From NCBI GenBank assembly GCA_020053795.1, contig JAGVMN010000026.1, positions 1 through 64,000 of the forward strand: a stretch of 64,000 nt of DNA, read 5' to 3'. A model generated the notes under the pieces. The model searched no databases, was not told the origin of the DNA, and saw only the letters and a list, made by a program, of their open reading frames with translations. The stretch's first letter is position 1. The number at the start of each line of letters is the position of its first letter. Of this stretch, positions 58,169 to 62,364 are shown piece by piece. The translations under genes were made by a program, and so were the position numbers. This DNA is from Bacteroidia bacterium (lineage in GTDB: Bacteria > Bacteroidota > Bacteroidia > NS11-12g > UBA9320).

Positions 58169-59061
58169 GATTCTTTCAAGTCTAAAAAAGCTCCCTGATT
58201 CATCATTACCTTTCGATTACCGGCAATCACAGGCCAAAGGTAAATCAGTCTGAAGAAGGAATATCCATAAACAAAACCTTCGCGAAACTTACCCCTGATG
58301 GTGGCAACCAGAATGCTTTTTATCAATGAGAAAAGCACCGATGTAATATTTTCTGGATGCTCGGGATGCAGGCATTTGGTCAGGCAAAAAGACGAAGTCA
58401 CACGACCCCATTTTGTCAGGTTGGATTGATAATCGCCTTCAGGCTTATTGTGTATGACTGAAGCTTTGGTTGAAATACCGATTTTGTAACCCTGATGAAT
58501 GGCTCTTTGGCAATAGTTCAAATCTTCGCCGTACATAAAAAAGATGGGGTTGAATCCGCCAATCTCTTTTACCGCTTTAAGATTCATAAGCCAGCAGGCT
58601 GCGTTGACAAAAGGAACTTCAATCAATCCCTGATCTTCGGTCAAAGAAATATTCAGCCGATCACAATTCTTCTTGAATTCATATTCAAGGTTACCATTTG
58701 CAGTTTTGTGTAATGGTGAAACCAAAGCAAGTCTTGGATTTTCGATAAAACATGCTATTAATTCTGAAATCATGTCGGCATTGATCTCTGTATCCTGATT
58801 AAGCAAAAACAAATAGTTTATGTTTTGCCGTATCGCTTCTTCAATCATTTGATTGGCAGCTACACCGAATCCTTTGTTTCCGTAACTGATAATCAACTTA
58901 ACGCCTCTTGGTGTTTCTAAAAGCCAATCCTTAGTTCCATCTTTTGAAGCATTATCGGAAACCATGATATCTGTGATTCCCGCCTTCCTTACCGATTCAA
59001 TACAATCTTTGAGGAAAGAAAGCCCGTTGTGCGAAACTATAGCCACTCTCAGTTTTTTCAT
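58165..59061 (-). CDS. Family 2 glycosyltransferase (rhamnosyltransferase-like)
   Basis: VSHNGLSFLKDCIESVRKAGITDIMVSDNASKDGT, LLNQDTEI, FFMYGEDLNYCQRAIHQGYKI. Confidence 0.92.
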   Translation of the reverse strand: MKKLRVAIVSHNGLSFLKDCIESVRKAGITDIMVSDNASKDGTKDWLLETPRGVKLIISYGNKGFGVAANQMIEEAIRQNINYLFLLNQDTEINADMISELIACFIENPRLALVSPLHKTANGNLEYEFKKNCDRLNISLTEDQGLIEVPFVNAACWLMNLKAVKEIGGFNPIFFMYGEDLNYCQRAIHQGYKIGISTKASVIHNKPEGDYQSNLTKWGRVTSSFCLTKCLHPEHPENITSVLFSLIKSILVATIRGKFREGFVYGYSFFRLIYLWPVIAGNRKVMMNQGAFLDLKES

Positions 59062-59975
59062 AGCATGTTAATGGCCATATAAAAAAAATCCTTCCATCCG
59101 TTTAAGGTCTTCCACTCACTAAGTCTGAACCACATGGAGGCAAACTTCGTGAAATAATTTATCGCCCATTTATTCTCCTGAATCATTCCCTTCAAAAATG
59201 CCCTGAAATGGAGATATCTGGCCTTTTCTATTTCAACAAACCACTTAGACCCAAAGTGCTTTTTCATGGCCTCATATAGCCTTTCATGGTATTCATAAAT
59301 TTTCTCGGGAGTGTTTGTTTTGGAAATACTGCCACGATGTATCCTATAAACCGAAAACATCTGATCGAAACAATAAACAGGGCCATTCTGAGCTAAGAGT
59401 GTGTAAACGATTTTGTCGTTGGAAATGGTTCCCTTGAAAATGTCGGGAAGTGGTTCCAGAGCCGATCTTCTAAAAACCAGCGTTCCGATCTGAAAAGGCG
59501 GAACGCCAAATAAGTCCTTCAATTCATAATCGGTCTTTGGAAGTTTGTTATAGTCACCTTCAAACTTTTCAGTTTCTTCATTATAGACTTTCGAAAGTCC
59601 GGCACAAGCCACATAGTTTTCATGAATTTGAAGAAAATCAATTTGCATTTTGAGTTTCTCAGGGTGATTCCAATAGTCATCCCCTTCCAGAATGGCTATA
59701 TATTCGGCAGTGCATTTGGCCATGATATTTTGAAGTGAACCATAGGTGTCTAAATTCGTTGGATTTCGATGATGAGATATTCTATCCGGATATTTTTGAA
59801 TGAACCCTTTTATTAATTCGCCAGTGGAATCAGTTGATGCATCGTCGGAAACCAATACCCGAAACGCCATTTCATTTTTTTGCTCCAAAACACTTTCGAT
59901 TGCCTGAGCGATATACTTTTCGGCATTGTAGGCAAGGATAACAACATCTAAGGTGGCTAGTGTTTTTAAGGTCAA
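59058..59975 (-). CDS. Family 2 glycosyltransferase
   Basis: DVVILAYNAEKYIAQAIESVLEQ, VLVSDDASTDSTGELI, AILEGDDYWNHPEKL. Confidence 0.93.
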   Translation of the reverse strand: MTLKTLATLDVVILAYNAEKYIAQAIESVLEQKNEMAFRVLVSDDASTDSTGELIKGFIQKYPDRISHHRNPTNLDTYGSLQNIMAKCTAEYIAILEGDDYWNHPEKLKMQIDFLQIHENYVACAGLSKVYNEETEKFEGDYNKLPKTDYELKDLFGVPPFQIGTLVFRRSALEPLPDIFKGTISNDKIVYTLLAQNGPVYCFDQMFSVYRIHRGSISKTNTPEKIYEYHERLYEAMKKHFGSKWFVEIEKARYLHFRAFLKGMIQENKWAINYFTKFASMWFRLSEWKTLNGWKDFFYMAINML

Positions 59976-60019
59976 TGGTTCTAAAAAAAGAATCTGTGCG
60001 AAAATAGTGGAATGGATTG

Positions 60020-60362
60020 GTTAATGGTTAATGGTGAATGGTTAATGGTTAATGGTGAATGGTTAATGGTTAATGGTGAATGGTGAATGGTTAATGGTGA
60101 ATGGTGAATGGTGAATGGTGAATGGTTAATGGTTAATGGTGAATGGTGAATGGTTAATGGTTAATGGTGAATGGTGAATGGTTAATGGTTAATGGTTAAT
60201 GGTTAATGGTTAATGGTTAATGGTGAATGGTTAATGGTTAATGGTGAATGGTGAATGGTTAATGGTTAATGGTGAATGGTGAATGGTTAATGGTGAATGG
60301 TTAATGGTTAATGGTGAATGGTGAATGGTGAATGGTGAATGGTTAATGGTGAATGGTTAATG
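60020..60362. repeat. 49-unit perfect heptanucleotide tandem array with two alternating variants (GTTAATG/GTGAATG)
   Basis: 343 bp = 49 x 7; 26 GTTAATG and 23 GTGAATG units, no other variants and no indels. Confidence 0.98.
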
Positions 60363-60725
60363 GAAAGGCGTTCGAGCTATTTGAAAAATCTGATCTTGGT
60401 CTTATTATTATGGTCACCGTATTATTGTTAAAGCCGATCAAGGTCTATGAACTTGGTTTTTTTGGTACTTAATTTTCGCCACACCACTTTTCCGTGATTG
60501 ACTTACAATCAAATTACTGGTCTTTAAATCATTCAAAATTGATCATAGGCTTTTGTTTCTTTAAAATTCCGAGAATTGTCAAATTGAACAATAAAGATTA
60601 ATGAGGATCATCAGTCCGATAAAATTTCATGGCCAGAATCACATGTTATATTTCTCAACAAATATTTTTCATCATATTGAGGATAGCAGAATTTTTATAG
60701 CTTCGCGACCAAATAAAAAAAAGCC

Positions 60726-61832
60726 TTGATTCTCGGAGTTCTTAAAGAAACAAAAGCCCACGAAAACAGAGTTGCCCTGACACCAACAGCAGTGAAAACC
60801 CTTTGCGGAAAAGGATACAACTGCCTAGTGCAAAACGGAGCCGGAGAAGCTTCCTCGTTTTCGGATACTGACTATGCAGATGCAGGTGCCAAAATGGTTT
60901 CCAATGCGGATGGAGTGGTAAAAGAAGCAGCAGTCATTCTAAAAATCAACCCGCCTGACAACACTGAAATAGGTTTGTTGTCCAATGGAAAAACGTGGAT
61001 CAGCATTTTGCAGCACCGTATCAATGGGGAACTCATTTCTCAGATTGCTGCTAAAGGTTCTACCGCCATTTCTATGGATGCCATTCCGCGTATTTCAAGG
61101 GCACAAAGCATGGACGTGTTGAGTTCTCAGGGAAATCTTGCCGGTTATAAAGCCGTTATCCTCGGAGCCAACGAAATGCCGAAAATATTCCCGATGCTGA
61201 TGACCGCCGCCGGAACAGTAAAGCCAGCCAGGGTTTTAATTTTTGGTGTGGGTGTAGCGGGCTTGCAGGCCATTGCCACCGCCAAAAGACTCGGAGCTAT
61301 TGTAGAGGCGACCGACGTAAGAATGGAAACCAAAGAACAGGCAGAATCACTCGGAGCAAAGTTTATCACGGTTGAAGGAGAAGGTGTCAGCACAGCAGGC
61401 GGATATGCAACTGAAGTATCGGCGGATTATCTTCAAAAACAGAAGGAAGCCGTCAACAAATCATTGCGATTGGCAGATTTGGTAATCACCACGGCTCAGG
61501 TTCAGGGTAAAAAAGCCCCGGTGCTCATATCGGAAGAACAGGTTGCCCTGATGAAAATGGGCTCTGTGATTGTAGATATGGCTGTTGAGCAAGGCGGAAA
61601 TTGTGCTTTGAGCGAACCCGGAAAAAACATCATTAAAAACGGTGTTAAGATAGTCGGACCGATTAATCTGCCCTCAACTTTAGCCAATAATGCCAGTGAA
61701 CTGTACGCCCGAAACCTGATTACGTTCCTCACACATATTTCAACCTCGGAATGCTTCTCCTATAACATGGAGGACGAAATTATCCGGGAAACACTCATTA
61801 TCCGCGACGGCAATATTCTAATTAACAGCTAA
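60726..61832 (+). CDS. pntA: NAD(P) transhydrogenase subunit alpha, part 1 (TTG start)
   Basis: GVLKETKAHENRVALTPTAVKTL, RISRAQSMDVLSSQGNLAGYKAVI, VLIFGVGVAGLQAIATAKRLGAIVEATDVR. Confidence 0.94.
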   Translation: MILGVLKETKAHENRVALTPTAVKTLCGKGYNCLVQNGAGEASSFSDTDYADAGAKMVSNADGVVKEAAVILKINPPDNTEIGLLSNGKTWISILQHRINGELISQIAAKGSTAISMDAIPRISRAQSMDVLSSQGNLAGYKAVILGANEMPKIFPMLMTAAGTVKPARVLIFGVGVAGLQAIATAKRLGAIVEATDVRMETKEQAESLGAKFITVEGEGVSTAGGYATEVSADYLQKQKEAVNKSLRLADLVITTAQVQGKKAPVLISEEQVALMKMGSVIVDMAVEQGGNCALSEPGKNIIKNGVKIVGPINLPSTLANNASELYARNLITFLTHISTSECFSYNMEDEIIRETLIIRDGNILINS

Positions 61833-62146: not shown

Positions 62147-62147
62147 T

Positions 62148-62184
62148 CAATTTGAAAATGTGGCAATTTGAAAATTTGAAAATG
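62148..62184. repeat. TTTGAAAAT-type short direct repeats
   Basis: CAATTTGAAAATGTGGCAATTTGAAAATTTGAAAATG. Confidence 0.75.
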
Positions 62185-62250
62185 AAGGATTCTGTTAAAA
62201 CCCGTCATACGTATAACACCCAATCAACTTGTCAACTCAACTTCGACTTC

Positions 62251-62266
62251 CTTCGACTCCGCTCAG
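62251..62266. repeat. CTTCGACTCCGCTCAG 16-mer, copy 2
   Basis: Exact reverse complement of 50138-50153. Confidence 0.8.
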
Positions 62267-62289
62267 GAAACACCGCTCAGTTATCGCAT

Positions 62290-62353
62290 TCAACTCGTCA
62301 ACTTATCAACTCATCAACCAATAAACCTATCAACTAATAATCCTATCAACTCT
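62290..62353. repeat. Degenerate octamer tandem array (TCAACTNA-like, 8 units)
   Basis: TCAACTCG TCAACTTA TCAACTCA TCAACCAA TAAACCTA TCAACTAA TAATCCTA TCAACTCT; two more units at 62224-62239. Confidence 0.8.
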
Positions 62354-62364
62354 AAATAAGAAAC

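Follow-up and report, generated by a model that had tools for sequence, protein, structure and literature searches.

The short tandemly repeated repetitive (STRR) sequences of cyanobacteria are tandem heptamers, some of them with a degenerate position. Among the long simple sequence repeats with units of 5–11 nt of Mrazek et al. 2007, as that work is presented in PMC4679880 and PMC4692102, heptanucleotides are commonest and slippage was proposed; heptanucleotides of Calothrix are likewise cited in PMC4692102. Rehm et al. 2015 described the intergenic heptamers GGGAATC in Xanthomonas and GGGGA(T/C)T in Nostoc PCC7120 (PMC4692102). GGGAATC arrays lay nearer to the ORF 5′ of the G strand than to the other (28 nt vs 160 nt on average), convergent inverted pairs were found, and no function was assigned (PMC4692102). 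MacGregor 2015 reported TAACTGA heptamers in Beggiatoaceae, Cyanobacteria and Bacteroidetes, with up to 43 copies in some Bacteroidetes and 7-nt copy steps between strains; in BOGUAY they occur mostly as short sets just upstream of start codons, in sense orientation (PMC4679880).

The window analysed here, a stretch of 64,000 nucleotides from a Bacteroidia genome, holds an array of GTKAATG/CATTMAC units that is a member of this known class, the intergenic heptamer repeats of many bacteria: as in heptamer long simple sequence repeats, its tandem length is beyond chance and its location intergenic. With the Rehm-type repeats it shares the period of 7, the mostly intergenic location, the nearer ORF 5′ of the G strand and the association with all gene classes, and with those of Nostoc PCC7120 the two-variant units. 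It differs from them in unit sequence, in phylum, in size (49 units vs their 26) and in the absence of GGG tracts, and so of a classical G-quadruplex; tandem GTKAATG has no G-tract of three or more, only GG doublets. Like the TAACTGA repeats it consists of intergenic direct heptamers in a long array with stops in all frames, though the unit is another. The cyanobacterial STRR sequences, offered as an analogue by an earlier sequence-only reading of this DNA, are a fair comparison as tandem heptamers with some degenerate positions, but differ in unit sequence and in host phylum, here Bacteroidota. The repeats of Mrazek et al. 2007 represent the general class, not GTKAATG specifically. Six two-unit strings of the unit had no occurrence in the open-access literature searched. 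The window array adds a very long new example to a repeat class that is poorly explained.

The array and its genomic setting

The source genome is a draft of 2.3 Mb in 76 contigs, 74% complete, with 102 matches to type IX secretion (T9SS) sorting domains, which are typical of Bacteroidota. To the left of the array lie three family 2 glycosyltransferase genes on the minus strand, and to the right pntAA-pntAB-pntB on the plus strand; domain matches agree with the divergent glycosyltransferase cluster and pntA named in the sequence-only reading. The array is intergenic, between the PF00535 gene and pntAA:

59058–59975, minus strand: family 2 glycosyltransferase gene (PF00535, E=8.9e-27), the boundary 5′ of the array's G strand
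59976–60019: gap between glycosyltransferase start codon and array, 44 bp
60020–60362, plus strand: heptamer array of 49 units, G-rich strand plus
60363–60725: spacer between array and pntAA, 363 bp
60726–61832, plus strand: pntAA, NAD(P) transhydrogenase alpha subunit, N and C domains (domain matches)

The 343 bases of the array are 49 × 7, made up of 26 GTTAATG and 23 GTGAATG units, and direct reading of the sequence found no indel and no third variant among the 49. The earlier description had coordinates, unit number, variants, order string and absence of indels exactly right. TRF placed the repeat at 60018–60363 (49.4 copies, score 531), by far the top tandem repeat of the window. The array is unusually long and genuine in sequence, and its length is far above chance expectation. 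Both units contain a stop codon, TAA in GTTAATG and TGA in GTGAATG, which with the period of 7 closes all three plus-strand frames, so the array is indeed non-coding on that strand, as had been proposed.

Order of the two variants and growth of the array

The T and G units form 25 runs, against 25.5 expected under permutation, and the order is thus near random. Lempel-Ziv complexity and tandem squares of the order fell inside the shuffle range, and autocorrelation at lag 4 was not significant. The word TTGG occurs six times, a count reached or exceeded in 251 of 10000 free permutations (nominal) but in 2237 of 10000 run-length-preserving shuffles, and is not significantly enriched against the latter. 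The 28-bp higher-order unit that recurrent TTGG blocks had seemed to indicate is not supported by these shuffles, nor by the lag-4 autocorrelation and Lempel-Ziv results.

Simulated slippage of single units from one founding variant gave about two runs, against the 25 observed. Block duplication and deletion starting from one G unit matched runs, G content, Lempel-Ziv complexity and squares, provided that the mean block was at least three units. The sequence-only reading had favoured multi-unit slippage or recombination over point decay; the simulations support this, while the 28-bp TTGG unit on which it was based is not supported. The order contains 24 T/G switches and no third variant, although each unit could undergo 20 other single substitutions, and so cannot be the product of independent point mutations. 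Frequent recurrent T/G flips would also fit, yet other substitutions should then be expected.

We consider it likely that the array is neutral, or nearly neutral, satellite DNA grown by block slippage or recombination. It would be an intergenic, minisatellite-like heptamer simple-sequence repeat that expanded several units at a time, through replication slippage, unequal recombination or both. The two spellings would go back to a single ancestral T/G exchange at the third base of the unit, and repeated duplication and deletion of blocks would have produced the near-random order and purged other variants. Loops of 7 nt are too large for MutS. The array has no demonstrated function and probably lacks a dedicated one as well.

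Block events are more openly visible in two other two-variant arrays. In stretch L304 (genome G452), GGGTTTGGGTTT contains a duplicated six-unit block, and the AGTTAAA/AGTTAGA units of stretch L325 are over-alternating, with 21 runs vs 14.4 expected (P=0.006). The two-variant array of L304 (942–1030) seems to end a four-helix-bundle (S23-like) frame and stands 4 bp before the start codon that follows, both gene identities being assigned by eye only.

Recurrence of the unit

A scan of GTDB species genomes returned at least 119 stretches with at least seven GTKAATG units; among the matches listed, these came from Bacteroidota, Rhizobiales, Gammaproteobacteria, Chloroflexi, Acidobacteria, Lentisphaerae, Desulfobacterota-type organisms and others. 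The first 80 loci yielded 78 arrays with seven or more consecutive units (41 G-only, 36 T-only and 1 mixed). The arrays collected here with period 7 and at least about 12 units, whatever their sequence, number 63; 13 of them are two-variant, and the window array exceeds all the others in length and in intermixing.

In a viral collection, GTKAATG was found in 18 stretches and two permuted control heptamers in 4 and 3, an excess that suggests some sequence preference; TAACTGA gave 30 stretches and GGGGAYT 7. On these few controls, GTKAATG is one of several favoured heptamers. The reversed control GTAAKTG, another heptamer family, formed arrays in two genomes of one genus (G068 and G073) in the phylum sample.

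The source genome itself has further arrays of similar kind, on contigs C45, C9 and C3 (75471–75607). The one on C45 (L031 3222–3278) is a second GTTAATG array, with eight units and no G variant. A gene judged by eye to be ppx/gppA-like ends within the first of these units, which provide its stop codon.

Position and strand rule

Gene boundaries were taken from crude, approximate ORF calls. By these, 62 of 76 GTKAATG arrays had their nearer gene 5′ of the G strand (p=2e-8). The proportion was 34/42 for T units, which are closed on both strands and so free of antisense-ORF bias, and 28/34 for G units, where some contrary cases may be masked by an open frame on the antisense strand; between convergent neighbours it rose to 23/24. 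Where a period-7 array had a stop codon on its 5′ side, this was within 15 bp in 61 of 71 cases, and the array often began at the stop codon itself. Of 83 right flanks, 23 contained an inverted period-7 array, and of 83 left flanks none did; a terminator hairpin is frequently visible between array and partner.

The source genome, sampled through about 395 kb of stretches and pattern searches, gave 14 intergenic arrays with periods of 7, 8, 14 or 16, of which 13 keep the rule (p=0.002). The window array follows it, with 42–44 bp on the 5′ side of its G strand vs 362–363 bp on the other. No inverted partner was found for it near pntAA; partners are optional in the class. The same operon does contain an inverted pair with outward G strands, in the gap between pntAB and pntB (62147–62364):

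62149–62183, plus strand: degenerate AATTTGAA array, starting 2 bp after the pntAB stop, G strand away from pntAB
62298–62351, minus strand: degenerate GTTGAT-type array (C strand TCAACTAATAAACCTA on plus), ending 13 bp before the pntB start

The array C3:75471–75607 (L354 9471–9607) is built of octamers, GTTGATAA and then GTTGATGG, and is two-variant in blocks. It lies 40 bp from a gene start, and an inverted ACTTACGCCTTACA-type partner lies 9 bp from the stop of the next gene. The position rule is in part already known; the present analysis extends it to octamers and, across phyla, to GTKAATG.

Relatives and turnover

Among 57 genomes from the host's family and order, none had a run of four or more GTKAATG units. 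Twenty-nine relatives retain the pnt operon, and in its fetched flank, at most about 1.5 kb with two loci ending near pntAA, none of them has any of the three glycosyltransferase genes. Upstream of pntAA in these relatives, no period-7 array was found except one weak stretch (L256). As far as can be seen from these comparisons, the array is specific to the host lineage.

Orthologous sites could be compared in other genera. Three Halomonas species share a locus with alignable flanks, where their GTGAATG arrays have 9, 7 and 8 intact units. In the genus of genome G227, of the same phylum as the host, the site after the stop of an orthologous gene holds a GTTAATG-type array in G227, 31 two-variant AGTTAAA/AGTTAGA units in a relative at 92% protein identity, and no array in twelve others at 79–92% identity. 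The two occupied sites are:

L324 2928–3042: GTTAATG-type array
L325 2937–3154: AGTTARA array

One site can thus hold different heptamers. Judged by such orthologous sites of congeners, which have no array or another heptamer, array turnover is fast. Turnover of unit and copy number is seen directly in these other genera; for the window array itself we infer copy-number change, and likewise its neutrality.

Alternative explanations

Polarity and inverted partners are not explained by neutral slippage alone. Selection on mRNA ends, whether as tolerance or as function, would set the polarity at the RNA level, a reading we regard as unlikely. G-strand units after a stop codon would bring stops in all frames and a hairpin, and C-strand units before a start codon an unstructured, ATG-free leader. 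The predicted folds of the window array agree: plus-strand RNA would fold through G-U pairing (−89 kcal/mol, z=−19), no fold is predicted for minus-strand RNA, and no stable structure for either DNA strand. The closeness of stop codons on the 5′ side also fits, subject to the crudeness of the ORF calls. However, G-type units fold weakly, and the window array, with its divergent neighbours, follows no stop codon.

Polarity could also arise in the DNA, through a process that lengthens G-rich 3′ ends away from the edges of genes, or because a small mobile intergenic element has the arrays as its inverted ends. A polarity shared by T and G units and by both start and stop edges, the inverted partners on the far side, and the like anatomy of GGGAATC in Xanthomonas (PMC4692102) speak for such an origin. 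Yet no shared core and no target-site duplication were seen between partners, which often differ in unit sequence; array flanks likewise had no shared core, their shared 9-mers being inverted arrays and a few AT-rich words. No enzyme has been identified, and the window array has no clear partner beside pntAA. We therefore think this origin improbable. Its widest form, one polar process laying heptamer and octamer arrays bacteria-wide via C-poor 3′ strands, or a minimal mobile element doing so, is a long shot; if true, inverted pairs would be left around terminators, and few readable records of the process would be longer than the window array. The common polarity beside genes, the inverted pairs and the unit swaps make the bacterial preference for 7 bp a testable question.

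A regulatory or contingency locus, in which copy number in the leader or promoter region switches or tunes the glycosyltransferase operon or pntA, is similarly doubtful. The array starts 44 bp away from a glycosyltransferase start codon, genes for surface glycans are classic contingency targets, and slippage yields heritable copy changes in the literature (e.g. uspA2). The sequence-only reading had proposed that copy number alters promoter spacing. Sigma-70-like sites at the locus were not in excess over shuffles. In relatives, a TAnnTTTG-like box can be made out by eye a short way upstream of pntAA, and candidate boxes in the window were placed accordingly:

60006–59999, minus strand: weak TAnnTTTG-like box TATTTTCG within the 44-bp gap, putative, by eye
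60698–60705: candidate TAnnTTTG-like counterpart TAGCTTCG, placed as the box of the relatives, by eye

The second, the best counterpart of the relatives' box, is about 335 bp from the array. With the first as −7 box of the glycosyltransferase gene, the −33 region would fall in fixed proximal units. The array would then lie outside the −33/−7 spacer of either operon, and copy number would alter neither, which leaves the spacing proposal unsupported. In addition, the C-strand leader is predicted to be unstructured, the heptamer class adjoins all sorts of genes, and Rehm et al. 2015 detected neither a functional bias nor a role in regulation (PMC4692102). The locus, including the 363-bp spacer, has no Rfam match, and the spacer has no terminator; the sole terminator-like match sits inside pntAA and is unremarkable.

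A wrong unit number or order from short reads is very improbable: the assembly is a draft of 76 contigs, and of the 129 arrays collected, 41 are no more than 400 bp from where the fetched stretch stops, in many cases at a contig end, but the longest exact repeat at the locus is 76 bp, so that k-mers of 77 or more are unique, and T/G mixing lets the array be assembled. Assembly of the array is plausible in this light, and its record length may come in part from mixed arrays assembling where pure ones do not. The two spellings allow assembly where pure arrays of equal length tend to break contigs, and long pure arrays may therefore be under-counted in databases. The T/G order is also a built-in barcode for the sizes of the blocks duplicated or deleted.
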